From the NCBI RefSeq assembly GCF_000426185.1, contig NZ_KE384505.1:559741-623740 (forward strand): 64,000 nucleotides of DNA, given 5' to 3'. Source of the stretch: Cellulomonas sp. URHD0024. GTDB lineage: Bacteria; Actinomycetota; Actinomycetes; Actinomycetales; Cellulomonadaceae. Shown here piece after piece: positions 23,197 to 37,691 of this stretch. How positions within the stretch are numbered: the stretch's first letter is position 1; the number at the start of each line of letters is the position of its first letter. Position numbers and translations under genes: made by a program. The notes under the pieces were generated by a model. The model was not told where the DNA came from and did no database searches. It saw only the letters and a program-made list of their open reading frames with translations.

Positions 23197-23336
23197 CCTC
23201 GCCCTCTCGTCCGGCGCGCCACGGCGACTCGTCGAGTTTCCACCGATTCGTACGGCATGGTTGAGGTTCGGCGGATCGGAACCGATACCTCCGTATAGGG
23301 CAGTCGGTGCCCGTCCGAGGTCGCGGGAGGCAAGCG

Positions 23337-25136
23337 GTGCGCAGTGGTTCACGTCTGACGGTCGTGGCGGTCGCCGCCGCAGGGATCGCGATGCTGCTCG
23401 CCGGGTGCACCGACCCCGCCCCGCAGCCCGACCGTCCGGGGACCGTGGTCGTCGCTGTCGCGTCGCCGTTCACGTCGCTGAACGGGGGGACCGCGCAGGG
23501 GCGCGCGCCGGGCAGCACCCTGGTCCGCGGGCTGGCCCAGTCCGGCTTCGTCAGTCTCGACGAGGACGGCACCGCCGTGCTCGACCCGTCGTTCGGCACG
23601 GTCGAGAAGGTGTCGGACGCACCGCTGACGGTGAAGTACACGATCGCGAAGGGTGCCACCTGGTCGGACGGGGTGCCCGTGACCGCGGACGACCTCGTCC
23701 TGGAGTGGGCCGCGCGCAGCGGGCAGCTGGACGACGTCGCGCCCGAGCTCGACGAGGCGGGCGACGTCACCAACGACGACGAGCTCGCCGCCGGCGTGGC
23801 CTTCGCAGCGGCGTCGCCGGCCCTGACCTACGTGGAGCTGCAGCCCGTCGTGTCCGGGGCGACCGTCACGGTCACGTACACGAAGCCGGTCGCCGACTGG
23901 CAGGTCGCGCTCGACGTCGGCCTCCCGGCGCACGTGGTCGGCCAGACGGCGCTGGGGGTCGAGGACCCCGCTGCCGCCGCGGCCGCGGTGACCGCCGCGA
24001 TCACGAAGGAGGACAAGAAGGCGCTGAGCTCGATCTCGGTCACCTGGCGCACGCAGTTCGACGCCGACGCGCTGGCTCAGCACATCGACCTCGCCGTCAG
24101 CGACGGCCCGTACGTCGTCGACCGGATCGTGCCGGACCAGCGAGTCGAGCTGGTGCGGAACACGAAGTACACCGGAGACCGGCCCGCCGCCTACGACCGC
24201 ATCGTGGTGCGCACCGACGTCGAGCCGCTCGACGAGGTGAAGGCGCTGTCGGCGGGCACGATCGACGTCATCGCCCCGGCGGACACCGCGGACGTGATGG
24301 ACGCGCTCGCGAAGGTCGACGACGCCACCGTGCACACCGGCGGCGACAGCACGCTCCAGCTCGAGCTGCAGGTGGCCGGCGGCGGCGCGTTCGACCCGGC
24401 GACCTACGGACGTGACGCGGCGACGGCGGCCGCGGTGCGCACGGCGTTCCTGCTGACCGTCCCGCGCGACACGATCGTCGACGACCTCGTGAAGCCCTTG
24501 TGGTCCGACGCCGAGGTCTCGACGGGCGTCCTGCCGCGGGTGGGACCGGAGGCAGGCGGAGCCGCGGGAGGCAGCGGTGCGGCCGACGTCGACCAGGCGA
24601 AGTCCGTCCTCGCGGACGCCAAGGTGACCGGCAAGGTCGTGGTCCGCGTCCTGACGAACACGACCGACCCGCTGCGCACGGCGATGCTCGACCAGATCAC
24701 GGACTCGGCGGCGCACGCGGGCTTCGACGTGCGGCCCTACACACCGGTGCAGGCGTGGGCGACGGACCTCGCCGGCGCGCCGGCCGCGTGGGACGTCGCT
24801 CTCGTGCCGGTCCCGCAGTCCGAGCTGCCGGTCGACGCCGTCGTGACGCGCTGGCAGACGAAGGCCTTCGCCAACCTGACCGGCTGGTCCGACCCCGCCA
24901 CCGACAAGGCCCTGAAGACCGTCGCCGCGACGGTCGACCCCGAGGCGGTGCCGGCGGCGCTGGAGCCCGTGGCGACGAGCCTGGTCGACGGCGGTGCGGT
25001 CTCGTCGATCGTCCAGCAGCCGGTCGTGGTCGCTCAGCGCGCGCTGCCGGACGGGACTGCGCTGCCGCAGATCGAGCCGCTCGCGCTCGGCCGCGCGGAC
25101 CTGACGTCGTGGTGGGGCTGGGCGCGGAAGGTGTAG
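23337..25136 (+). CDS. peptide ABC transporter substrate-binding lipoprotein (SBP family 5), copy 2
   Basis: A 599-aa lipoprotein (lipobox MLLAGC, Cys24) clearly paralogous to the protein at 15892-17754. Both carry ASPFTSLN/SPLTSLN after the signal, KYTIAKGATWSDG/KYTISKDATWSDG, SDGPYVV/SDGPYII and GAFDPATYG/GPFDPATYG. Copy 2 is shorter and more Ala-rich. The GTG at 23337 has GGGAGG six bases upstream. It follows the fused ATPase gene by 140 bp, so one transporter probably serves two binding proteins with different ligands. Confidence 0.92.
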   Translation: MRSGSRLTVVAVAAAGIAMLLAGCTDPAPQPDRPGTVVVAVASPFTSLNGGTAQGRAPGSTLVRGLAQSGFVSLDEDGTAVLDPSFGTVEKVSDAPLTVKYTIAKGATWSDGVPVTADDLVLEWAARSGQLDDVAPELDEAGDVTNDDELAAGVAFAAASPALTYVELQPVVSGATVTVTYTKPVADWQVALDVGLPAHVVGQTALGVEDPAAAAAAVTAAITKEDKKALSSISVTWRTQFDADALAQHIDLAVSDGPYVVDRIVPDQRVELVRNTKYTGDRPAAYDRIVVRTDVEPLDEVKALSAGTIDVIAPADTADVMDALAKVDDATVHTGGDSTLQLELQVAGGGAFDPATYGRDAATAAAVRTAFLLTVPRDTIVDDLVKPLWSDAEVSTGVLPRVGPEAGGAAGGSGAADVDQAKSVLADAKVTGKVVVRVLTNTTDPLRTAMLDQITDSAAHAGFDVRPYTPVQAWATDLAGAPAAWDVALVPVPQSELPVDAVVTRWQTKAFANLTGWSDPATDKALKTVAATVDPEAVPAALEPVATSLVDGGAVSSIVQQPVVVAQRALPDGTALPQIEPLALGRADLTSWWGWARKV

Positions 25137-25177
25137 TGGGGCTGGTCACCTCTGGGCCATTCCGGCCTACGGACGGG

Positions 25178-25183
25178 TAGGAT
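25178..25183 (+). promoter_or_regulatory. TAGGAT -10 box for typA
   Basis: TAGGAT fits the local TANNNT pattern; the transcript would start near 25190, ~37 bases before the typA ATG at 25227. Confidence 0.5.
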
Positions 25184-25226
25184 TGACCGGCGCAGCCGAC
25201 GACCGGCGCGCTCCCCACCTTCTGAG

Positions 25227-27188
25227 ATGAGTTCCCCCATGTCTGAGCCCACGTCTGCGCCGAGCACGTCTGTCGGCACGAGCGTGCGCGGAGACCTGCG
25301 CAACGTTGCCATCGTCGCGCACGTCGACCACGGCAAGACCACCCTCGTCGACGCCATGCTGTGGCAGTCCGGTTCGTTCGGTTCCCACGCCCACGTGGAC
25401 GAGCGCGCGATGGACTCCGGCGACCTGGAGCGCGAGAAGGGCATCACGATCCTCGCCAAGAACACGGCGATCCGGTACACGGGTCCCGCGGCGGCAGAGA
25501 TCGGTCAGCCCGACGGCATCACCATCAACGTCATCGACACCCCGGGCCACGCCGACTTCGGTGGCGAGGTCGAGCGCGGCCTGTCCATGGTCGACGGTGT
25601 CGTCCTGCTCGTCGACGCGTCCGAGGGCCCGCTGCCCCAGACCCGGTTCGTGCTGCGCAAGGCGCTCGTCGCCAAGCTTCCCGTGATCCTCGTCGTGAAC
25701 AAGACCGACCGCCCCGACGCGAGGATCACCGACGTCGTGCACGAGGCGACGGACCTGCTGCTCGGGCTCGCCTCGGACCTGCACGAGGACGTGCCGGACC
25801 TGGACCTCGACGCGATCCTCGACGTCCCCGTCGTGTTCGCCGCCGCCAAGGCCGGTCGCGCGTCGATGAACCAGCCCGCCGACGGCGGCCTGCCGGACTC
25901 GGAGAACCTCGAGCCGCTGTTCAAGACCATCCTCGAGCGCATCCCGGCCCCGACCTACACCGAGGGCGCGCCGCTGCAGGCGCACGTCACCAACCTCGAC
26001 GCGTCGCCGTTCCTCGGTCGCCTCGCCCTCCTGCGCGTGTTCAACGGCACGATCCGCAAGGGCCAGACCGTCGCGTGGGCCAAGGCCGACGGCACGCTGG
26101 CGAACGTGAAGATCACCGAGCTGCTGGAGACCAAGGCGCTCGAGCGCGTCAGCACCGACTCCGCCGGCCCCGGCGACATCGTCGCCGTCGCCGGCATCGA
26201 GAACATCACCATCGGCGAGACGCTGACGGACCCGGACGACCCGCGCCCGCTGCCGCTCATCACGGTCGACGACCCCGCGATCTCCATGACCATCGGGATC
26301 AACACGTCCCCGCTGGCCGGCCGTGGGGGCAAGGGCCACAAGGTCACCGCCCGCCAGGTCAAGGACCGCCTCGACAAGGAGCTCGTCGGCAACGTGTCGC
26401 TGCGCGTCCTGCCCACCGAGCGCCCCGACGCCTGGGAGGTCCAGGGCCGTGGTGAGCTCGCGCTGGCCATCCTCGTCGAGCAGATGCGTCGTGAGGGCTT
26501 CGAGCTGACGGTCGGCAAGCCGCAGGTCGTCATTCGCAAGGTCGACGGCAAGGTGCACGAGCCCGTCGAGCGCATGACGATCGACGTCCCCGAGGAGTAC
26601 CTGGGCGCCGTCACGCAGCTGCTCGCGCAGCGCAAGGGCCGCATGGAGACCATGTCGAACCACGGCACCGGCTGGGTCCGCATGGAGTTCCTCGTCCCGG
26701 CGCGCGGCCTGATCGGGTTCCGCACCCGGTTCCTCACGGACACGCGCGGCACGGGTATCGCGTCCTCGATCTCCGAGGGCTACGAGCCGTGGGCCGGCAA
26801 CATCGAGACGCGCATCAACGGCTCTCTCGTCGCCGACCGCTCCGGTCCCGTCACGCCCTTCGCCATGATCAACCTGCAGGAGCGGGGCTCGTTCTTCGTC
26901 CAGCCGACGCAGGAGGTCTACGAGGGCCAGATCGTCGGTGAGAACTCGCGCAACGAGGACATGGACGTGAACATCACCAAGGAGAAGAAGCTGACCAACA
27001 TGCGGTCGGCCACCGCGGACAACTTCGAGAACCTCATCCCGCCGCGCAACCTGACGCTGGAGGAGTCCCTCGAGTTCGCCCGTGAGGACGAGTGCGTCGA
27101 GGTGACGCCGGAGATCGTGCGCATCCGCAAGGTGGTGCTCGACCAGACCGAGCGCGCGCGCATCACGGCCCGCTCGAAGCGCGCCTGA
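25227..27188 (+). CDS. typA: translational GTPase TypA/BipA
   Basis: A ribosome-associated GTPase of the EF-G-like class needed for ribosome assembly and adaptation to stress or cold. It is 653 aa from 25227, or 649 from the in-frame ATG at 25239; ribosome-site evidence for either is weak. The P-loop is AHVDHGKTT. G2/G3 are seen in EKGITI and DTPGHADFGGEV, and NKTD is the guanine-specificity motif. The TypA-specific C-terminal domain (MSNHGTGWVRMEF, RGLIGFRTRFLTDTRGTG) is complete. The N-terminal ~25 residues are a Ser/Pro/Thr-rich extension. Confidence 0.96.
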   Translation: MSSPMSEPTSAPSTSVGTSVRGDLRNVAIVAHVDHGKTTLVDAMLWQSGSFGSHAHVDERAMDSGDLEREKGITILAKNTAIRYTGPAAAEIGQPDGITINVIDTPGHADFGGEVERGLSMVDGVVLLVDASEGPLPQTRFVLRKALVAKLPVILVVNKTDRPDARITDVVHEATDLLLGLASDLHEDVPDLDLDAILDVPVVFAAAKAGRASMNQPADGGLPDSENLEPLFKTILERIPAPTYTEGAPLQAHVTNLDASPFLGRLALLRVFNGTIRKGQTVAWAKADGTLANVKITELLETKALERVSTDSAGPGDIVAVAGIENITIGETLTDPDDPRPLPLITVDDPAISMTIGINTSPLAGRGGKGHKVTARQVKDRLDKELVGNVSLRVLPTERPDAWEVQGRGELALAILVEQMRREGFELTVGKPQVVIRKVDGKVHEPVERMTIDVPEEYLGAVTQLLAQRKGRMETMSNHGTGWVRMEFLVPARGLIGFRTRFLTDTRGTGIASSISEGYEPWAGNIETRINGSLVADRSGPVTPFAMINLQERGSFFVQPTQEVYEGQIVGENSRNEDMDVNITKEKKLTNMRSATADNFENLIPPRNLTLEESLEFAREDECVEVTPEIVRIRKVVLDQTERARITARSKRA

Positions 27189-27198
27189 GCACGCTCTG

Positions 27199-28086
27199 AT
27201 GGCCGGCGGCCTCGTCGCGGTGCACGCGCACCCCGACGACGAGTCGCTGAGCACCGGCGCGCTGCTCGCCACCTGGGCGCGCGCCGGTCTGCCGACGACC
27301 GTGGTCACCTGCACGCGCGGTGAGCGCGGCGAGGTCATCGGGGTGCCGCTCGCGCACCTCGAGGGCGATGGGCCGGCCCTGGCCGATCACCGCTCGGGCG
27401 AGCTGGCGCACGCGCTCGAGGCCCTCGGTGTGCCCGACCACCTGTTCCTCGACGAGGTGCCGGGCGCGGCTTCGGGCCAGTTCGAGGACTCGGGCATGGC
27501 GTGGCTCGGCACGGGCGAGGCCGGGCTTTCCGACGACGTCCCGCCCCACGCGTTCGTGGGCGTGAGCGTCGAGGACGCGGCTCAACGGCTGGCGGACGTC
27601 CTCAGGTCGCGCGACGCGTCCGTCGTCGTGACCTATGAGCCCGGTGGCGGGTACGGCCATCCCGACCACGTCCGCGCCCACGAGGTGACACGACGGGCCG
27701 TCGAGCTCGTCGAACCGCGCCCGGTTCTGCTGGTCGCGGTCCAGGGCGAGCACGCCTTGCGCGCCGGGTACGCCGCCCTTGCCGGACGTACGTCGCCAGG
27801 CCTCCGCCTCCCCGACGTCGACGGTCCGCTGCCGTCGGTGGCGGTGCCCGACGACCTGGTGGACCTCCACGTCGACGTGCCGCCGGTCCGCGAATCGATC
27901 CTCGCCGCCCTCCGGGCCCACGCGACCCAGGTGCAGGCCGTGGACGCGATCGACGACGACGCCGCGCTGGTCGGCTGCTACGCGCTCAGCAACCAGCTGC
28001 TCGCGCCCCTGCTGCCCGTCGAGGCGTACCGGATCGTCGGTGACGGTGACGTCGCGTGGCCGGCCGGCGTGCGCCGGATAGCCTGA
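27199..28086 (+). CDS. mshB: MshB-type N-acetyl-GlcN-inositol deacetylase (mycothiol synthesis)
   Basis: A PIG-L family zinc deacetylase of 295 aa. It removes the acetyl group of 1-D-myo-inosityl-GlcNAc, the second step of mycothiol synthesis. Zinc motif AHPDDES (His11, Asp14) is at the N-terminus, and HPDH in GGGYGHPDHVRAH provides the third ligand. CTRGERGEVIG and YALSNQLL are typical of MshB. It lies 10 bp after typA and 4 bp before the DUF6113 gene, its usual actinobacterial neighbour. Mycothiol conjugate amidase (Mca) is the main alternative, but length and context favour MshB. Confidence 0.9.
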   Translation: MAGGLVAVHAHPDDESLSTGALLATWARAGLPTTVVTCTRGERGEVIGVPLAHLEGDGPALADHRSGELAHALEALGVPDHLFLDEVPGAASGQFEDSGMAWLGTGEAGLSDDVPPHAFVGVSVEDAAQRLADVLRSRDASVVVTYEPGGGYGHPDHVRAHEVTRRAVELVEPRPVLLVAVQGEHALRAGYAALAGRTSPGLRLPDVDGPLPSVAVPDDLVDLHVDVPPVRESILAALRAHATQVQAVDAIDDDAALVGCYALSNQLLAPLLPVEAYRIVGDGDVAWPAGVRRIA

Positions 28087-28090
28087 CCGC

Positions 28091-28510
28091 GTGCGCTTCT
28101 CCGTCGCCCTGCTCGGCAAGACCGTCCTGACCGTCGGCGTCGGCTTCGTCGTCGGGCTGATCGGGACGATCATGCACCGCAGCGTCCAGCCGTGGGGCCT
28201 CGTCCTCGCTCTGCTTCTCGTGCTGACCGCCGCCACCACCGCTCGGGCGCTCGGCGGGTTGGTCGCCTGGATCGGCTTCGTCGCAGGACTCGGCGTGACC
28301 GTCCTGGCGCTGTCCCAGGAGGGCCCGGGCGGCGACGTCCTCATACCGTCGGGACCGAAGCTCGGCGTCGTGTGGCTCGTCGGCTCGATGGTCCTGGCCG
28401 TCGCGGCGATGTTCCTTCCGCGCGCGTGGTTCTCGGACGCGCCTCGTCCTGCCCGGCCCGCGCGGCCCGTGGCCGGGGATGCCGTCGGGGAGCCGGACAC
28501 CACGCAGTGA
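28091..28510 (+). CDS. DUF6113 family membrane protein
   Basis: A 139-aa protein with four hydrophobic segments (about residues 8-28, 36-55, 57-76 and 90-112) and a Pro/Ala-rich tail. Proteins of this kind often follow mshB in actinobacteria, but the function is unknown. It starts at a GTG four bases after the mshB stop, and its own stop overlaps the flavin reductase start (GTGA), so the three genes are likely co-transcribed. Confidence 0.82.
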   Translation: MRFSVALLGKTVLTVGVGFVVGLIGTIMHRSVQPWGLVLALLLVLTAATTARALGGLVAWIGFVAGLGVTVLALSQEGPGGDVLIPSGPKLGVVWLVGSMVLAVAAMFLPRAWFSDAPRPARPARPVAGDAVGEPDTTQ

Positions 28511-29001
28511 GCCTCGACCTGTCGTCCGACGACTTCCGGTCCGCCATCGGTCGTCTGCCCGCCGGCGTCGCCGTAGTCACGTTGCGCTGGCGGGAGACCG
28601 TCCACGCGATGACCGCGAGCGCGGTCGCATCCGTCTCGCTCGAACCCCCGATGCTCCTGTTCTGCGTGCACGTGGACGCCCGGTTCCGTGACGCCCTGGA
28701 CGATGTGGACACCTGGGCTGTGAGCGTCCTCGCCGACGACCAGGCGCACACCGCCGACTGGTTGGCGTCTCCCGGCCGGCCCGCGTTCGACCAGCTCGCG
28801 CGCGTGCCGCACCGGCCGGCGCCGCTGTCCGGCGGGGTCTGGCTCGACGGGGCGGCCGCGTCGTTCGACTGCCGGACGTCCGCGATCCACCGCGCCGGGG
28901 ACCATGACGTCGTGGTCGGCGACGTGCTCGCAGCGGAGCAGGGGGAGGCGGACGTGGGCGGTCTGGTCCACCTGCGCGGCCGGGTGCGGCCCGTTCGCTG
29001 A
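28507..29001 (+). CDS. flavin reductase family protein
   Basis: A 164-aa FMN-binding split-barrel protein of the flavin reductase-like family. Conserved parts are RSAIGRLPAGVAVVT at the start, AMTASAVASVSLEPPMLLF (flavin site), ARFRDAL, WAVSVLADDQ and GDHDVVVGDVL. Such proteins reduce FMN for two-component monooxygenases or act as small oxidoreductases. No monooxygenase partner is adjacent. It is translationally coupled to the DUF6113 gene. Confidence 0.88.
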   Translation: MSLDLSSDDFRSAIGRLPAGVAVVTLRWRETVHAMTASAVASVSLEPPMLLFCVHVDARFRDALDDVDTWAVSVLADDQAHTADWLASPGRPAFDQLARVPHRPAPLSGGVWLDGAAASFDCRTSAIHRAGDHDVVVGDVLAAEQGEADVGGLVHLRGRVRPVR

Positions 29002-29150
29002 CCCTGCTGCAAGGCCTCCCGCCGGGTTTGTCCGATGCGTCCACCTCGGCAGACCCGACCCGGACCGGTGCGGTCTCGCGGAGGTCTCGATCTGCTGTGA
29101 ATCGCTGTCCGGCGGGTGGTGTGGTCGTCGGGAAATCGCTCGCCGCCACG

Positions 29151-29156
29151 TAGACT
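29151..29156 (+). promoter_or_regulatory. TAGACT -10 box for the VanW-family gene
   Basis: TAGACT sits ~44 bases before the ATG at 29200, which also has an AGGGGAG ribosome site. The rest of the spacer from 29002 shows no gene or clear hairpin. Confidence 0.5.
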
Positions 29157-29199
29157 CGCGCGGGCGCGTTGTACGCGCGGGGAGCGGCAGGGGAGCAGT

Positions 29200-32100
29200 A
29201 TGAGCAAGGGTACGGAGCAGGACCAGTCCGGGCAGGGCGGCGCGACCTCGGGCGCAGGCGCGTCCGCAGATCCGGTCTGGCCCGTCTGGGGCGGCGGCGC
29301 GCCGATGGTGCCCGCCGCAGACCACGAGGCCGAGGACTCGGCCGCCGTCGACGAGGCTGCCGACGAGGTCACGCCCAGCGTCGCCAGCGAGCCGACGACT
29401 GACCCTGAGCCGGCAGCGGACGATGCCGACGACGACAGCGAGACCCCCACGCTCGAGGCGGACGAGCCTGCGACGGACGAGGTCGCGACGGACGAGCTCG
29501 CGACGGACGAGCCTGCGACCGACGAGCCTGCGGCGGACGAGCCTGCGACGGACGAGCCTGGGGCCGCGATTCACGAGCCCGCGCACGACGAGGCCAGCAG
29601 CGACGATGCCACGAGCGACGAGGTCATCAGCGACGAGGCCACCACCGACGAGGCCTCCAACGACGAGCCTGCGACGGACGAGCCTGCGACGGACGAGCCT
29701 GCGACGGACGAGCCCGTGGCTGAGTCCGACGAGGTCGCGATCGACGCGGATCCGGTCGGCGAGGCGCGGATCGACGAGGCCGCGATCCACGAGCCCGCGG
29801 CCGACGAGCCCGCGGCCGAAGAGCCTGTGGCGGACGAGCCCGCGGCGGATGGGCCCGTGGCCGACGAGCCCGCGGCGGACGAGCCCGCGGCCGGGCCGGA
29901 CGAGGCCAGAGTCGACGACCCTGCGAACGACGAGGTCCCGAACGACGGGACGGACGCCGGACCGACGGACGACGGGGCCGCAGGCGACGAGGCCAGCCTC
30001 GCTCCGGTAGCTGCTGCCGAGGAGCCTGCGAAGGCTGACGAGGCCCCCAGCGAGCCGGCGCCGGTCGAGGAGACCGTCGCGGCGGCTGCTGTCGCCGAGA
30101 CCGACGAGGCACCCGCGGACGTGGTCCGCACGGCCGACGTCTCCGACGAGCCCGCCGAGCCCGAGCCGTCCGAGGTGGTTGGTGAGGGCGCCTCGGTGGA
30201 GCCGACGGGTGGCCCGGAGCCGGTGGCCGAAGCCGTCGAGGACGAGTCGGCGCAGCCCGCACCCGAGGGCGAGCAGCCGGCGCCGACCGACGAGACACCG
30301 GTCGTCGTCGCCCCTCCGGCTGAGCCCGAGCCGGAGGTCGTCCGCCCGAATCCGTTCGCGGCGCTGGCGAGCGCTGCGCTCGCTTCGGCGATCAGGCCGA
30401 CCGCACCCACAGTCGTCGCCCCCGAGTCGGAGCCCGCCCCGGCGCCGCAGAGCGCCGTGGTGCCGGCAGCGCCGACCGAGGTGCTGCCGCCCGTCGCCGC
30501 GGAGCCCGATCCGGTACAGGCGCCGACCGAGGTGCTGACGCCGGTCGCCGCGGCGGCCGTCCCGGTCGTGGCGCCCACCGCGGTGACTGCGCGCGTCGAA
30601 CCGACGCCGGTTCCGGCACGCGCGTTCGCGCCGGTCAGTGCCGCGGCCGCCGCGGCGTCCGGCACGATTCAGGCGGGCCCGGTGCCGCCGCGCGAGCGTG
30701 ACCGCGACCCTTCACCGTTCGACGTGTTCGAGCCCGAGAACGGTCGACGCCGGTGGCCGCGACGGCTGGCGATCGTCGGTGGCATCGTGCTGGTGCTCGG
30801 GGCGGCGTACGTCGGTGCCTCGTTCGCGGAGGCCGACAAGGTCCCGCGTGGTGCGAGCGTCGCAGGTGTGGACATCGGTGGCCTCGCGTCGGCGGACGCG
30901 GTCGCGCGCCTCGATGACGAGCTGTCCGGCCAGGCCACCAAGCCGATCCCGGTGGTCGCGCAGGACACGCAGGCCACGTTGGACCCGAAGGTGGCAGGCC
31001 TCACTCTCGACGCGCAGGCCACGGTCGACGAGCTGACGGGCCTGGACCTGGCGACCCCGAAGCGGCTGTGGAACCACCTCGTCGGGGTCGAGGAGCAGCC
31101 CGCGGTCACCGCGGTCGACCAGACCAAGCTGGCCGCGGCCCTCGACGGGCTGGGCACCTCCGTGCAGCTGGAGCCGGTCGACGGCACGATCGTCTACGTC
31201 GACGGGACCGCCCAGTCCACGCAAGCCGTCGACGGCTGGGCCCTCGACCCCGAGGGGGCGGCGAAGGTCGTCACGGACGACTGGCTCGTCGCGCCCCGGC
31301 CCCTGAAGCTGCCGACGAAGCCGGTCGAGCCGACGATCACGCAGGAGGAGACGGACGCCGCCCTCGCGGAGGCGACCACGGTGAGCTCTGCGCCGGTCTC
31401 GGTCTCGGTCGACGGGCAGGTGGCTCTCCTCGACGCGAAGACGCTCGCGGACAACGCGTCGTACGTGCCGACCGACGGGGACCTGGCCCTGCAGCTGAAC
31501 GGCGAAGGCCTGACAGCGGCGGTCCTCGAGAAGCTGCCCACCCTGCTGACGGAGTCGGCCGACGCGCACTTCGAGTTCGTGAACGGCGCGCCGGTGATCG
31601 TCCCCGGTGCCTCGGGCACGACGCTCGACCCCAAGGCGATCGCCGCGGCCGTCGCGAAGGCGGCTGTCTCGAGCAACCGCTCCGCCACGGCCGAGCTCGT
31701 GCAGGCGGACCCGACCGAGTCGACCGCCGCGCTCGAGGCTCTGGGGATCAAGGAGGTCGTCTCGAAGTTCGACACGCCGCTCACCAGCGAGCCGCGCCGG
31801 ACGGTGAACATCACGAACGGTGCCAGCAAGATCAACGGCACGCTGATCAAGCCGGGCGAGACGTTCAGCCTCACCGAGGCGCTCGGGCCGATCGACGCGG
31901 CGCACGGCTTCGTCGAGGCGGGCGCGATCGTCAGCGGTGAGCACACCGACGCCTGGGGCGGCGGCCTGAGCCAGGTGTCGACGACCAGCTACAACGCGGG
32001 GTTCCTCGCGGGCTTCGAGGACATCGAGCACAAGCCGCACAGCGAGTGGTTCGCGCGGTACCCGGAGGGCCGCGAGTCGACGATCTTCACCGGCACGCTC

Positions 32101-32427
32101 GACATGCGGTGGAAGAACAACACCCCGTACGGCGCCCTGGTGCAGTCGTGGGTGGCCGACAACCGCGTCTACGTGTGGGTGTGGGGAACCAAGTACTGGA
32201 CGGTCGAGTCGATCACGAGCCCGCGGTCGAACGTCGTGCACCCCACCACCGTGTACTCCCAGTCGCGCACCTGCGAGCCGTCCTCGGCAGGGAACCCCGG
32301 CTTCTCGGTGACGGTGACCCGCAAGACGTCCCTGAACGGCGAGCTGGTCAAGACCGAGTCGGACTCGTGGCGCTACAAGCCGCAGAACAAGATCGTCTGC
32401 GGGCCGGCGCCCACGCCGGCGCCCTAA
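29200..32427 (+). CDS. VanW family protein with very long acidic N-terminal region
   Basis: A 1075-aa membrane protein. Residues 1 to ~515 are low-complexity and rich in Asp, Glu, Ala and Pro, with DEPATDEPA-type repeats. A basic stretch RRWPRR and one membrane segment (~523-542) follow, putting the acidic half in the cytoplasm and the rest outside. The exterior part has peptidoglycan-binding-like repeats (GASVAGVDIGGL starts the first) and a C-terminal VanW domain (INGTLIKPGETFSL, GGGLSQVSTTSYNAGFLAGF, then TPYGALVQSW). A vancomycin-resistance role is not implied; VanW proteins are probably cell-wall factors. The acidic region's job is unknown. Confidence 0.88.
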   Translation: MSKGTEQDQSGQGGATSGAGASADPVWPVWGGGAPMVPAADHEAEDSAAVDEAADEVTPSVASEPTTDPEPAADDADDDSETPTLEADEPATDEVATDELATDEPATDEPAADEPATDEPGAAIHEPAHDEASSDDATSDEVISDEATTDEASNDEPATDEPATDEPATDEPVAESDEVAIDADPVGEARIDEAAIHEPAADEPAAEEPVADEPAADGPVADEPAADEPAAGPDEARVDDPANDEVPNDGTDAGPTDDGAAGDEASLAPVAAAEEPAKADEAPSEPAPVEETVAAAAVAETDEAPADVVRTADVSDEPAEPEPSEVVGEGASVEPTGGPEPVAEAVEDESAQPAPEGEQPAPTDETPVVVAPPAEPEPEVVRPNPFAALASAALASAIRPTAPTVVAPESEPAPAPQSAVVPAAPTEVLPPVAAEPDPVQAPTEVLTPVAAAAVPVVAPTAVTARVEPTPVPARAFAPVSAAAAAASGTIQAGPVPPRERDRDPSPFDVFEPENGRRRWPRRLAIVGGIVLVLGAAYVGASFAEADKVPRGASVAGVDIGGLASADAVARLDDELSGQATKPIPVVAQDTQATLDPKVAGLTLDAQATVDELTGLDLATPKRLWNHLVGVEEQPAVTAVDQTKLAAALDGLGTSVQLEPVDGTIVYVDGTAQSTQAVDGWALDPEGAAKVVTDDWLVAPRPLKLPTKPVEPTITQEETDAALAEATTVSSAPVSVSVDGQVALLDAKTLADNASYVPTDGDLALQLNGEGLTAAVLEKLPTLLTESADAHFEFVNGAPVIVPGASGTTLDPKAIAAAVAKAAVSSNRSATAELVQADPTESTAALEALGIKEVVSKFDTPLTSEPRRTVNITNGASKINGTLIKPGETFSLTEALGPIDAAHGFVEAGAIVSGEHTDAWGGGLSQVSTTSYNAGFLAGFEDIEHKPHSEWFARYPEGRESTIFTGTLDMRWKNNTPYGALVQSWVADNRVYVWVWGTKYWTVESITSPRSNVVHPTTVYSQSRTCEPSSAGNPGFSVTVTRKTSLNGELVKTESDSWRYKPQNKIVCGPAPTPAP
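29461..29900 (+). repeat. degenerate 15-bp tandem repeats coding DEPA(T/A) in the VanW-family gene
   Basis: Units of GACGAGCCTGCGACG and close variants recur in clusters near 29461-29560, 29665-29715 and 29800-29890, encoding DEPAT/DEPAA pentapeptides. In-frame unit gain or loss between strains is likely. Confidence 0.85.
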
Positions 32428-32693
32428 CCTGAGCGGTGCCGCGGCGCGGGTGGCGGCGGCACCAGCTTGGTGAGGACTATGTCCGCGGCGGGAACCCGGA
32501 CGTCGCCGCGGCGCGTGCGCACGAGGACACCGGCGTCGTCGACGGCGAGAACCTCACCGAGGACGTCGGTGTGCCGGGGTTCGTCGGCCGTGGGTGCCGC
32601 AGGCAGGTCGTCGCGGAGCCGGCGGACCACCACGCGGACGCCCGGGGACCAGGTGCGCCACTCGGTCGAGCTCACCGCGCAGTCCGTGGACAC
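32424..32693 (-). CDS. small SH3-like protein (Rv0428c N-terminal-type domain)
   Basis: An 89-aa protein with a beta-barrel-like pattern: WSPGVRVVVRRL, then DVLGEVLAVDDAGVLVRTRRGDVRVPAADIVLTKLVPP. This resembles the N-terminal SH3-like part of actinobacterial acetyltransferases of the Rv0428c type, which often sit next to fdxA. Here the frame stops right after the domain and no GNAT part follows. It starts at a GTG and is divergent from fdxA. Its stop overlaps the end of the VanW gene by four bases. The homology call is from memory of the family and is moderate. Confidence 0.65.
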   Translation of the reverse strand: MSTDCAVSSTEWRTWSPGVRVVVRRLRDDLPAAPTADEPRHTDVLGEVLAVDDAGVLVRTRRGDVRVPAADIVLTKLVPPPPAPRHRSG

Positions 32694-32759
32694 GCGATCG
32701 CGGTGGGAATCATGTGAGCGATACTAGGAGCGACCCCCGGCCACTGTGGAGGACCGACC

Positions 32760-33086
32760 GTGACGTATGTGATCGCCGAACCTTGCGTTGATGTCAAGGA
32801 CAAGGCGTGCATCGAAGAATGTCCCGTGGACTGCATCTACGAGGGCAAGCGGTCGCTGTACATCCACCCGGACGAGTGCGTGGACTGCGGCGCGTGCGAG
32901 CCGGTCTGCCCGGTCGAGGCCATCTACTACGAGGACGACGTCCCGGAGCAGTGGACCGAGTACTACAAGGCGAACGTCGAGTTCTTCGACGACCTCGGCT
33001 CGCCCGGCGGTGCCGCGAAGATGGGTGAGATCGACAAGGACCACCCGATCATCGCGACGCTGCCGCTGCGCGTGCACGGCGACTGA
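32760..33086 (+). CDS. fdxA: 7Fe ferredoxin (3Fe-4S + 4Fe-4S)
   Basis: A 108-aa FdxA-type ferredoxin. The first motif, EPCVDVKDKACIEECPVDCIYEG, has the spacing for a 3Fe-4S cluster, and CVDCGACEPVCPVEAI ligates the 4Fe-4S cluster. Cysteines are shared between the two motifs as usual. The GTG start has GGAGG upstream. It carries electrons for redox enzymes and lies just before dapC, a common actinobacterial arrangement. Confidence 0.95.
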   Translation: MTYVIAEPCVDVKDKACIEECPVDCIYEGKRSLYIHPDECVDCGACEPVCPVEAIYYEDDVPEQWTEYYKANVEFFDDLGSPGGAAKMGEIDKDHPIIATLPLRVHGD

Positions 33087-33096
33087 CGCCTGCTCG

Positions 33097-34236
33097 ATGG
33101 GTCTGCTGACCGGCGCACTGCCCGACTTCCCCTGGGACACGCTCACGCCGTTCAAGGAGCGTGCCCGCGCGTACCCCGGCAGCATCGTCGACCTGTCCGT
33201 GGGAACTCCGGTCGACCCCACGCCTGCTCTGGTGCAGGAGGCGCTCGCGTCCGCGGCCGACTCGCCGGGCTATCCGACGACGCACGGCACACCGGAGCTG
33301 CGCCAGGCCGTCGTGGACTGGTTCGCGCGCCGCCGTGGTGTGCGCGGGCTCGACCCGGCCGGCGTGCTGCCGACCGTGGGCTCCAAGGAGCTCGTCGCCT
33401 TCCTGCCGTCGCTGCTCGGCCTCGGCGCCGGCGACGTGGTGCTGCACCCGTCCGCGGCGTACCCGACGTACGACGTGGGCGCTCGGCTGGCCGGCGCGAC
33501 CCCGGAGCCCACCGACGATCCCGCGGCGCGTCTGCGCCAGGGCGGCGTGCGCCTCGTCTGGCTGAACTCGCCGGGGAACCCCACCGGCCAGGTCCTGGGG
33601 GTCGACGAGCTCACGCGGGTCGTCGACGCCGCGCGCGCGGCCGCCGCGCGGGACGGTCGACCGGTCGTCGTCGCCTCCGACGAGTGCTACGCGGAGCTGG
33701 CCTGGGACGAGCCGTGGGTGAGCGGCGGCGTGCCGAGCGTGCTCGACCCGCGCGTGACCGGCGGCGACCTGACCGGTCTGCTCGCGGTGTACTCGCTGTC
33801 CAAGCAGTCCAATCTCGCTGGGTACCGGGCGGCCTTCGTCGCGGGGGACCCGGTGCTCGTCGCCGGGCTGCTCGAGGTGCGCAAGCACGCGGGCATGATC
33901 GTGCCCGGACCGGTCCAGGCGGCGACGGCCGCAGCGCTGGCCGACGACGCGCACGTCTCGGAGCAGCGGGAGCGGTACCGCCGTCGTCGCACCACGCTCC
34001 GTTCGGCGTTCGAGCAGGCCGGGTATGCGGTCGACGCGTCGCACGCCGGGCTCTACCTGTGGGTGCGCCCGGAGGCCGGCGACCAGGACAGCTGGGCCAC
34101 GGTCGGGGACCTCGCCTCGCTCGGGATCCTCGTGGCACCCGGCGCGTTCTACGGTGCACCCCGGCACGTGCGCGTCGCCCTGACGGCGACAGACGAACGC
34201 ATTGCCGAGGCTGCCGCACGACTTGCCGGCGCCTGA
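33097..34236 (+). CDS. dapC: succinyldiaminopimelate transaminase
   Basis: A class I/II aminotransferase (379 aa) converting N-succinyl-2-amino-6-ketopimelate and glutamate to N-succinyl-LL-DAP in lysine and peptidoglycan precursor synthesis. Features are GYPTTHGTPELRQAV, LNSPGNPTGQVL, ASDECYAELAW, and the PLP-lysine segment YSLSKQSNLAGYRAAFVAG. The DapC assignment rests on this subfamily pattern, the fdxA-dapC order typical of actinobacteria, and dapD/dapE nearby in the same window. The start is ATG at 33097, ten bases after fdxA. Confidence 0.92.
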   Translation: MGLLTGALPDFPWDTLTPFKERARAYPGSIVDLSVGTPVDPTPALVQEALASAADSPGYPTTHGTPELRQAVVDWFARRRGVRGLDPAGVLPTVGSKELVAFLPSLLGLGAGDVVLHPSAAYPTYDVGARLAGATPEPTDDPAARLRQGGVRLVWLNSPGNPTGQVLGVDELTRVVDAARAAAARDGRPVVVASDECYAELAWDEPWVSGGVPSVLDPRVTGGDLTGLLAVYSLSKQSNLAGYRAAFVAGDPVLVAGLLEVRKHAGMIVPGPVQAATAAALADDAHVSEQRERYRRRRTTLRSAFEQAGYAVDASHAGLYLWVRPEAGDQDSWATVGDLASLGILVAPGAFYGAPRHVRVALTATDERIAEAAARLAGA

Positions 34237-34257
34237 CGCCCATCGGGCGAACGGTTC

Positions 34258-34273
34258 TGTGATCGTCGTCACA
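34258..34273. promoter_or_regulatory. CRP/GlxR-type operator upstream of gltA
   Basis: TGTGATCGTCGTCACA is a perfect TGTGA-N6-TCACA site; with flanking C and G the symmetric arms are six bases each. CRP-family regulators of actinobacteria (GlxR in Corynebacterium, Rv3676 in Mycobacterium) use this motif, and GlxR is known to control gltA in Corynebacterium. It lies ~67 bases before the transcription start inferred from the TACCGT box at 34320-34325. Confidence 0.75.
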
Positions 34274-34294
34274 GGCCCAACGTCCGGTCCAAGA

Positions 34295-34325
34295 TTGGTC
34301 ACGGAACGTCTCGCGCAGGTACCGT
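34295..34325 (+). promoter_or_regulatory. putative gltA promoter
   Basis: TTGGTC (34295-34300) and TACCGT (34320-34325) with a 19-base spacer form a plausible -35/-10 pair downstream of the CRP-type site. The leader to the ATG at 34436 would be ~105 bases; it holds no clear structure. Confidence 0.45.
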
Positions 34326-34435
34326 CGATCCAGGCCAACGGGGGCCCGTATGCGCACGCCGAACGGCGGCCATCAGCTGGCGGCATGGACGCGCGGGACA
34401 TCCCCGCCCCCGAGCCGTCGCAGGAGAGGAACACC

Positions 34436-35758
<1,323 letters not shown>

Positions 35759-35769
35759 GCAATCCGCAG

Positions 35770-35813
35770 ACGTCCGCACTCGTGGGGCGTACGACCCTGA
35801 CGAGTGCGGACGT
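35770..35813. repeat. palindromic intergenic repeat, copy 1
   Basis: Perfect 14-bp arms ACGTCCGCACTCGT (35770-35783) and their complement (35800-35813), with a 16-base loop that starts GGGG and ends CCCTG. It lies exactly between the convergent ends of gltA and the transglycosylase-like gene, so it can terminate both. Two relatives occur at 38850 and 38912. Confidence 0.85.
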
Positions 35814-35823
35814 TCCGCGTTGC

Positions 35824-36720
35824 CTACGTCGTGATCGTGAGGCTCACGGTGCCCGCGGGCACCGGGGTCGTCGACGGGCCCCAGGTTCCGCCCGCGCGGT
35901 CCCAGGTCTGGTCGCCGACGCTCACCGACGTCAGTCCCAAGGGGTCCGAGACGGCGACGGCCCACTGGGCGAGCGCCCAGTCCCGCTCCCCGGCGTCGTC
36001 GACGGACGTCACCGCCGAGGTGGGGAACGTCAGGGTCGCGCCACCGTCGATGGGCGTGACCTCGACGGGCACGTGAGAGCCCAGGTCCCGTTGGATCCGC
36101 GCGACGACGGCGTCCGAGGTGCTCGGCGCGGCGTCGTGCAGGGTGCAGGTCAGGGCGCCCGGCGAGTTGCCGGTGAGCGCGGAGGCCCAGGCGCGCGAGG
36201 TCTCCTCGTGCTGGGCGTAGGCGTCGGGGAAGCCTGAGCGTTGGACCGCCTGGGCGGCCTCGGTGACGGGCAGGTCGCGGTAGCCGGGCACCTTGATCAG
36301 GTGGTCGTAGAAGGTGCCGGCCGCGTACAGCGGATCCTGGACCTGCTCGACGGTTCCCCAGCCCTGCGACGGGCGCTGCTGGAACAGCCCGAGGGAGTCA
36401 CGGTCGCCGTAGTCGACGTTGACGAGCCTGGACTCCTGCATCGCCGTCGCCAGGGCGATGGTCACCGCCCGCGCGGGCAGCTCGCGCTGGACGCCGAGGC
36501 CTGCGATCAGGGCAGCGTTCTCCGCCTGCGTCGTCGACAAGGACCAGGTCTGGCCGTCGACCGTCGCGTCGCACCGGTCCGCGAAGGGCGCGGGAGGGTG
36601 GGTGCGGGTGAGGAACCAGACGACTCCGCCCACGCCCAGGGCCAGGAACGCCAGTGCGACGAGAACGGCGCACCCGGTTCGTCGGGCCGACCCGGCCCGA
36701 CGCCTGCGACGGGCGCTCAC
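35824..36720 (-). CDS. lysozyme/lytic transglycosylase-like membrane protein
   Basis: A 298-aa protein with a basic N-terminus ([13 protein letters not shown]) and one membrane anchor (~18-38). The exterior domain carries [36 protein letters not shown], a lysozyme-fold signature with a candidate catalytic Glu in QESRL. Similar actinobacterial proteins are often misnamed. A cell-wall role is inferred, not proven. The GTG start overlaps the dapD stop (GTGA), so it is co-transcribed with dapD. Confidence 0.75.
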
Positions 36721-37691
36721 TCGTTCGTGTGCAGGGATGCGTTGAGCTCGACGCCCGAGCCCGCACGCGTGACCGCCTCGACCCCACCGGTGAGCGAGTT
36801 GCGGCGGAACAGGATGTTGTTGCGGCCCGCCAGCTCGCGGGCCTTGACGACGATCGGCTCGGTCGGTGCCGAGGCAGAACCGGCACCGAGCAGAGTGACC
36901 TTCGTCCCCGCCGTGACGTACAGGCCGGCCTCCACCACGCAGTCGTCGCCGAGCGGGATGCCCACGCCGGCGTTGGCGCCGAGCAGGGTCCGGCTGCCGA
37001 TGGAGACGACCTCGCGGCCTCCGCCCGAGAGGGTGCCCATGATCGAGGCGCCGCCGCCGATGTCCGAACCGTCCCCGACGACGACCCCGGCCGAGACGCG
37101 TCCCTCGATCATCGAGGTGCCGAGCGTGCCGGCGTTGAAGTTCACGAACCCCTCGTGCATGACGGTGGTCCCGGCGGCGAGGTGAGCCCCGAGCCGCACC
37201 CGGTCGGCATCCGCGACCCGCACTCCGGCGGGCACGACGTAGTCGACCATCCGCGGGAACTTGTCGACCGACAGGACGGTGACCGGCACGCCGGTCGCCG
37301 CCCGGATCCGACCGCGCGTGGCCTCGAACCCCTCGACGGCGCACGGACCTCGGTCGGTCCACACGACGTTGGGCAGCACCCCGAACAGGCCGTCGAGGTT
37401 CTGGCCGTGCGGCGCGACGAGCCGGTGCGAGAGCAGGTGCAGGCGCAGGTAGGCGTCGGCGGTGTCCGCCGGGGGAGCGTCCAGGTCGATCACCGTCCGC
37501 ACCACCTGGATGCGGACCGCGCGGGCGTCGTCCTTGCCCTCGGCGGCGGTCAGCGCCGCGGGCGGCTCGGTGTCCGAGTCCGGGGCTCCCAAGGCCGGGG
37601 AGGGGTACCAGACGTCAAGGGTGGTGCCGTCGTCGGTCACCGTGGCAAGGCCGTAGGCCCAGGCCGTCCGCGCAGTCGCGCCAGCATTCAT
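36717..37691 (-). CDS. dapD: tetrahydrodipicolinate N-succinyltransferase
   Basis: A 324-aa actinobacterial-type DapD that transfers succinyl from succinyl-CoA to tetrahydrodipicolinate in DAP/lysine synthesis. The C-terminal half is a left-handed beta-helix of hexapeptide repeats ([27 protein letters not shown], then [14 protein letters not shown] and [16 protein letters not shown]). The N-terminal domain carries the actinobacterial [20 protein letters not shown] start. On the minus strand a TAGGGT -10 box (37704-37699) lies seven bases before the ATG, so the mRNA is probably leaderless. It is divergent from dapE. Confidence 0.95.

Follow-up and report, generated by a model that had tools for sequence, protein, structure and literature searches.

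The VanW protein analysed here, from Cellulomonas sp. URHD0024, carries ahead of its membrane helix a disordered acidic tail whose most conserved element, as judged by comparison of related sequences, is the short motif WPxW. The tail may be a disordered tether that bears a docking motif and couples a probably non-catalytic, wall-binding ectodomain to a putative cytoplasmic partner, and we give this reading a probability of about 0.45. The gene lies in the window, a stretch of DNA of 64,000 nucleotides, and its features are collected in Table 1. As the first-pass annotation of the window had stated, about half of the protein (~512-519 of 1075 aa) is of low complexity and rich in D, E, A, and P.

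Table 1. Position of the gene in the window and of the elements of its product
Feature	Position	Strand	Remarks
CDS, VanW protein with acidic N-terminal tail	29200..32427	+	1075 aa
Shine-Dalgarno-like AGGGGAG	29189..29195	+	precedes ATG at 29200
N-terminal box MSKGTEQD	29200..29223	+	resembles M(T/S)xGT(D/E)RD of many genus rows
Disordered tail, acidic, proline/alanine-rich, most likely cytoplasmic	29200..30735	+	aa 1-512; low confidence to ~aa 519
WPVW (floating WPxW), proposed docking site	29278..29289	+	aa 27-30
DEPAT-type block	29461..29892	+	13 DE[PVL]A[TA] pentapeptides, 15-base tandem units
Hydrophobic island NPFAALASAALASAI	30349..30399	+	aa 384-400; similar island in nearest relative
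Juxtamembrane box SPFDVFE...GRRRWPRR	30706..30759	+	aa 503-520
Single membrane helix	30754..30828	+	aa 519-543, AlphaFold2
PG_binding_4-like region, two parts	31108..31710	+	aa ~637-837
VanW domain	31798..32184	+	aa 867-995
Ser924 in GGGLSQ	31969..31971	+	place of Cys (GGGxCQ) in Cys-type VanW proteins
His947	32038..32040	+	invariant in 73/73 aligned rows
G5-like C-terminal domain	32191..32403	+	aa ~998-1068, weak structural match

The WPxW Motif

In an unbiased count of three-residue patterns, WP.W ranks first, being present in 43 of 54 end-trimmed tails where the floor expectation is 0.2. The genus tails of at least 200 aa contain WPxW in 44 of 55 cases, compared with a mean of 0.07 tails and a maximum of 1 in 300 rounds of shuffling, and 88 of their 110 tryptophans sit in the motif. 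W, P, and W alone are invariant in the 44 aligned copies. The flanks are clade-specific (DPV-WPVW-GG, PLAA-WPSW-DDVAVTAP, and R-WPTW-DDIARLHQIP). The motif is retained amid changing surroundings, since its distance from the N-terminus ranges from 23 to 399 residues. Tryptophan and proline are generally slow to change, and shared descent alone explains part of the conservation of WPxW. Descent accounts for the sharing of the motif, but not for its staying while its surroundings get rewritten.

All copies fall within one 56-row clade of the ectodomain tree, where the presence of the motif amounts to 4 changes; the tree is a quick IQ-TREE reconstruction with long-branch warnings, and the support of this clade is modest (SH-aLRT 84). 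Within the clade, 46 of 50 scoreable rows have WPxW, L064, L075, L077, and L109 are without it, and 6 rows are cut or masked. Eight long tails of the genus lack the motif (L064, L081, L090, L091, L092, L095, L109, and L126). In L049 and L101, the tail start and WPxW are in a different frame from the remainder of the gene, which is either an assembly error or a real break, and the listed tail lengths of these two rows are too short because the tail is split across frames.

A family-wide motif was ruled out, as WPxW was found in 0 of 16 tails of at least 90 aa examined from other genera of the family, a count made outside the part-length loci L127-L155 of the family. Beyond the family, L247 and L267 have WxxW matches that differ from WPxW, and those of L247 lie in a doubtful upstream extension. 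The tail of L277 has seven spaced single tryptophans, mostly after an acidic residue and before G or D, unlike WPxW. In the source genome, the motif profile matches this protein only (E 3.2e-6), the next match being a 74-aa frame at 0.28, and a search with the tail for a second protein carrying it matched only itself. The WPxW profile gave no match to solved structures. A query of open-licence PMC papers, represented mostly by titles and the starts of abstracts and worded without the motif itself, found none on the tail or on WPxW among the papers listed.

Composition of the Tail

The 512 residues ahead of the aligned membrane block include A117, P80, E71, D58, K2, and R10, which corresponds to 25% D/E, 2% K/R, 23% A, and 16% P, and to a net charge of -117. 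The disorder that was to be predicted for this region is borne out by AlphaFold2 (73 sequences in the alignment), with pLDDT < 50 over nearly all of aa 1-519. The most frequent pentapeptides, including DEPAT, have 6 copies each, and DE[PVL]A[TA] has 13 copies within aa 88-227. In 2000 residue shuffles, no pentapeptide is ever seen as often as 6 times, nor DE[PVL]A[TA] as often as 13 times. Tandem Repeats Finder reports a 15-base unit with 16.7 copies at 29459-29714. The earlier description of a tail built from such repeats thus stands as to their occurrence above chance, but not as to their extent, because they fill only ~144 of the 512 residues (aa 88-231). The tail of the nearest relative, L097, whose ectodomain is 80% identical, has no DEP, and those of L098, L100, and L103 have 6 to 8 DEP each and no DEPAT. 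The repeats are therefore a local expansion inside a wider acidic tail.

The tail has further elements. The juxtamembrane box in the form SP[LF][DE].F occurs in 64 of 79 genus rows, in a relaxed form in 74 of 79, and in 12 of 13 tail-less rows. The island NPFAALASAALASAI more loosely resembles the island of another clade and has no predicted order (AlphaFold2). A second hydrophobic island, LSALAFTALNAASVG..., is conserved in roughly twelve related rows and more loosely resembled in the window pair and in L114/L115; it shows no order in the model either.

Distribution and Divergence of the Tail

The named records that match are nearly all from Cellulomonas, at 59-80%. Of 81 genomes in the genus, 79 have a relative, as do 196 of 200 genomes sampled from the family, and the source genome has one VanW match. 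The genus rows exclude a second strong match in genome G064. The complete tails of the genus, with starts chosen by a simple ATG and Shine-Dalgarno rule, are 29-831 aa long with a median of 409 (n = 71); 53 of the 71 have at least 200 aa and 14 have fewer than 60. These 71 of 79 genus rows leave out L054, L121, L122, L124, and L125 (contig ends), L093 (masked), and L089 and L097 (no ATG start), and the starts assigned to L081, L085, L094, and L096 are questionable. In the five rows first named, the contig breaks off within the tail, an outcome that would not be surprising for GC-rich repeats, and tail lengths from draft assemblies need care.

The long tail is ordinary for the genus, not unusual. 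The view that VanW proteins usually have short N-termini agrees with the phylum sample (0-72 aa in L176-L205), whereas long ones are common in the genus and occur in other families too, so that the present protein is not singled out. Long VanW proteins of other families of the class (L266, L267, L271-L275, and L277) have long N-terminal tails of unrelated sequence, part of them acidic and part not. Within Cellulomonas, a 13-row clade has just 29-31 aa ahead of the membrane block and two further rows have 64-75 aa; because the tail is absent or only this short there, it is dispensable in these rows. On the ectodomain tree, with other genera included, the difference between long and short tails amounts to 7 changes.

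At non-synonymous sites, the tail diverges several-fold more than the ectodomain. Its dN is 0.067-0.54, compared with 0.008-0.18 for the ectodomain, and is the higher of the two in 17 of 17 pairs, although the tail values are inflated by misalignment in low-complexity sequence. Alignment gaps number 4-38 per pair in the tail and 0-1 in the ectodomain. Tail identity is 40-57% in 13 of the 17 compared pairs. In genus tails of at least 200 aa, the acidic fraction spans 0.07 to 0.32.

Translation Start and Membrane Topology

The frame runs open throughout from the ATG to the stop at 32425-32427. A translation start near the membrane segment (~30700) had been named by the first-pass annotation as the outcome that would undo a long tail. 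The start near 29200 is upheld by a G-rich GGGGA-type site at the corresponding place of many related loci and by their similar N-terminus. Moreover, 16 of 17 pairs of relatives show their lowest conservation in the tail at codon position 3, and 16 of 17 have a dN smaller than dS; L070/L072, the closest pair, is the sole exception on both counts. The tail is translated, given the similar start region in relatives and the codon-position and dN/dS pattern. Gaps that keep the frame add no proof of coding, because the pair alignments were built at the protein level and have such gaps by construction. Frames in the GC-rich DNA here do run long by chance, and long overlapping minus-strand frames are present, which would suit a wrongly called start or a non-coding repeat. 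However, the start region and the codon pattern just described rule out a mis-called start or a non-coding tail, and WPxW is retained in the reading frame of the tail, so this explanation is hardly credible. The minus-strand frames opposite the gene, at 27163-29790 and 30712-32241, are most likely GC-rich shadow frames.

The N-terminal tail most likely lies inside the cell by the positive-inside rule, because in 78 of 79 genus rows K and R are more numerous in the 15 residues before the helix than behind it. The prediction of one membrane helix with the tail inside is consistent with this bias and with the AlphaFold2 model.

The Ectodomain and Its Serine

After the helix, the AlphaFold2 model has pLDDT mostly > 90. 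The identification as a VanW and peptidoglycan-binding protein is confirmed by Pfam, with 138 bits for VanW (PF04294, cut-off 27) and 53.7 bits for PG_binding_4 (PF12229, cut-off 22.1), the latter in two stretches with the best at 712-825. The best VIA match is Ldtfm over aa 717-837 (Z 6.3), which is weak and may mean a mere common arrangement; for the VanW domain, all VIA rows have Z of at most 3.6. The best Foldseek match of aa 998-1068 is HP0197-G5 (E 2e-3); VIA gives Z 2.3-2.5 here, and Pfam has no G5 match at E 1 in this region. The whole protein has no sequence match among solved structures, and Foldseek, in which the ectodomain was part of the full-length model, gave no fold match at E 1e-3.

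Like the conserved histidine, the GGGxxQ stretch is unchanged in all 73 aligned rows. In the cysteine column, alignment A1 (73 rows) has 61 Ser and 12 Cys, the Cys rows being all from outside the class, and Ser occurs in 79 of 79 genus rows. The counts that follow are of loci returned by searches, mostly best-scoring, plus hand-picked ones. Cys is found in 29 of 30 loci of the phylum sample L176-L205, the exception belonging to the window's own order, and Ser in 29 of 29 of the order sample. All 47 loci L236-L282, which come from the class, the order, and the family, have Ser, read directly in 46 and via the twin L304 in the case of L279. Thirteen further non-short places comprise 12 Ser (including the 128-aa fragment L297 and L304) and 1 Ala (L296). 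L295 and L296 deviate around the conserved His as well (TPPE), and one of them is without the Ser too. There are two VanW types in the class, since 7 of 7 short VanW frames (282-361 aa, L285-L291), picked for their shortness, retain Cys.

Judging from these rows, the replacement of Cys by Ser is old, belongs to the long VanW form in class Actinomycetes, and is independent of the tail. A tie between the tail and the loss of Cys was ruled out, as Ser is also found in long VanW proteins with N-termini of a few to tens of residues. The probable role of the ectodomain is to bind or sense the wall and not to cross-link it, given the Ser at the Cys position of Cys-type VanW proteins.

Comparison with Known VanW Proteins

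The primary paper on the VanW-type L,D-transpeptidases LdtCd4 and LdtCd5 is reportedly that of Bollinger et al. 2024. A review describes a Cys-His-small-residue triad for VanW L,D-transpeptidases, a membrane anchor with a PG4 domain in LdtCd4/LdtCd5 of Clostridioides difficile, and some VanW proteins that show no L,D-transpeptidase activity (PMC12729407). Going by that review, LdtCd4/LdtCd5 and the present protein have in common the membrane anchor, PG4, VanW, and the conserved His. In contrast, the present protein has Ser924 and no Cys at the presumed position of the catalytic Cys, and a long acidic cytoplasmic tail with WPxW. The column of Ser924 would be that of the catalytic Cys of LdtCd4 on the evidence of GGGxCQ in the Cys-type rows. 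His947 is the likely equivalent of the histidine in the reported triad. The C-terminal part of the present protein has a weak G5-like match.

The combination of PG_binding_4 and VanW is already known. Cg3157 of Corynebacterium glutamicum has both domains and a proposed role in peptidoglycan metabolism (PMC7775120); as an actinobacterial protein of this kind it is like the present one, by domains only. The Cys-type proteins outside Actinomycetes (29 of 30 of L176-L205) have the same VanW domain and mostly a similarly long ectodomain, whereas their N-termini have 0-72 aa by simple start rules, compared with the ~512-aa tail here; the phylum list also holds longer frames (up to 1160 aa) outside this sample. 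The glycopeptide-resistance accessory VanW (NCBIfam NF033128) shares the VanW domain with the present protein, which scores 30.5 bits against an equivalog cut-off of 365.

Proposed Mode of Action and Alternatives

By sequence and prediction, this is a single-pass membrane protein, most likely with its N-terminus inside; its PG4-VanW-G5-like arm reaches into the wall, and its disordered acidic tether lies in the cytoplasm. The length and sequence of the tether appear free to change, probably via repeat slippage, and the acidic chain may serve as a soluble spacer that resists collapse. One clade retains a drifting WPxW and a juxtamembrane SPLDxFE box, and from its pattern of retention WPxW most likely docks a putative cytoplasmic partner. 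The ectodomain has Ser in place of Cys and would bind the wall with no cross-linking. The protein may in this way couple a peptidoglycan-bound ectodomain to the putative partner docked by WPxW. Of the roles proposed earlier, the binding of chromosome-associated proteins or of the division machinery is speculative. The entropic spacer agrees with the charge, the disorder, and the free length, yet takes no account of WPxW and the juxtamembrane boxes, whose conservation speaks for docking as well.

The chief alternative is a near-neutral acidic brush: a permissive D/E/A/P region grows by slippage, nothing counts beyond its charge and disorder, and WPxW either anchors to the membrane surface or is a relic that disappears slowly. 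The spread of tail lengths, the fast divergence with many gaps, the 13 tail-less rows, the lack of DEPAT in four compared relatives, one of them without any DEP, the long tails without WPxW, and the unrelated sequence of the long tails of other families are all what such a brush would give. A relic, however, should decay like its surroundings, which keep 40-57% identity in most pairs, while WPxW, at shifting positions, persists in 46 of the 50 rows of its clade that could be scored, and we consider the brush possible but doubtful.

A serine nucleophile is not known to be reported for the VanW family. An active transpeptidase, serine-based or otherwise independent of Cys, with a tail that places it at division or growth sites, is suggested by the invariance of His947 and GGGxxQ and by the membrane anchor and PG4 shared with LdtCd4/5, as described in the review (PMC12729407). 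This is improbable in view of Ser instead of Cys in all 79 genus rows, and the distant long members L295 and L296 depart further near the His. Still less probable is an acidic tail that binds cations, basic nucleoid proteins, or polyamines. The net charge would favour it, whereas such a binder is expected to retain its charge and the acidic fraction of the genus tails falls as low as 0.07; the suggestion of cation binding also fails to find a DxDxDG-like site in the tail, which has one DxDxD.

Returning to the tether with a docking motif, a more specific form of it is unlikely, namely that WPxW is a genuine short linear motif read by a putative cytoplasmic partner and that a catalytically retired VanW ectodomain reports or transmits the state of the peptidoglycan inward through an acidic tether of free length. 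If true, the protein would be a wall-to-cytoplasm coupling device that arose out of a transpeptidase family within a single Cellulomonas clade, and WPxW would be new to bacterial envelope biology within the open-licence PMC literature searched, mostly titles and abstract starts. The motif could be a ready bait for finding interactors of non-canonical VanW proteins. The case also illustrates that the sequence of a disordered tether can be replaced while a short motif within it stays. The Ser-for-Cys long VanW form, present in nearly all Actinomycetes rows examined, together with a motif-bearing disordered tail in one clade, offers a testable lead.

Neighbouring Genes

The nine neighbouring frames at 23307-37362 gave no van resistance family among their Pfam matches. 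The matches comprise solute-binding protein family 5, TypA/BipA, PIG-L deacetylase, flavin reductase, 4Fe-4S ferredoxin, aminotransferase, and citrate synthase, with a DUF6113-like frame just below the cut-off; 1 of the 9 frames is without a Pfam match. The PIG-L deacetylase is presumably MshB-like, and the aminotransferase is one which we take to be DapC-like.
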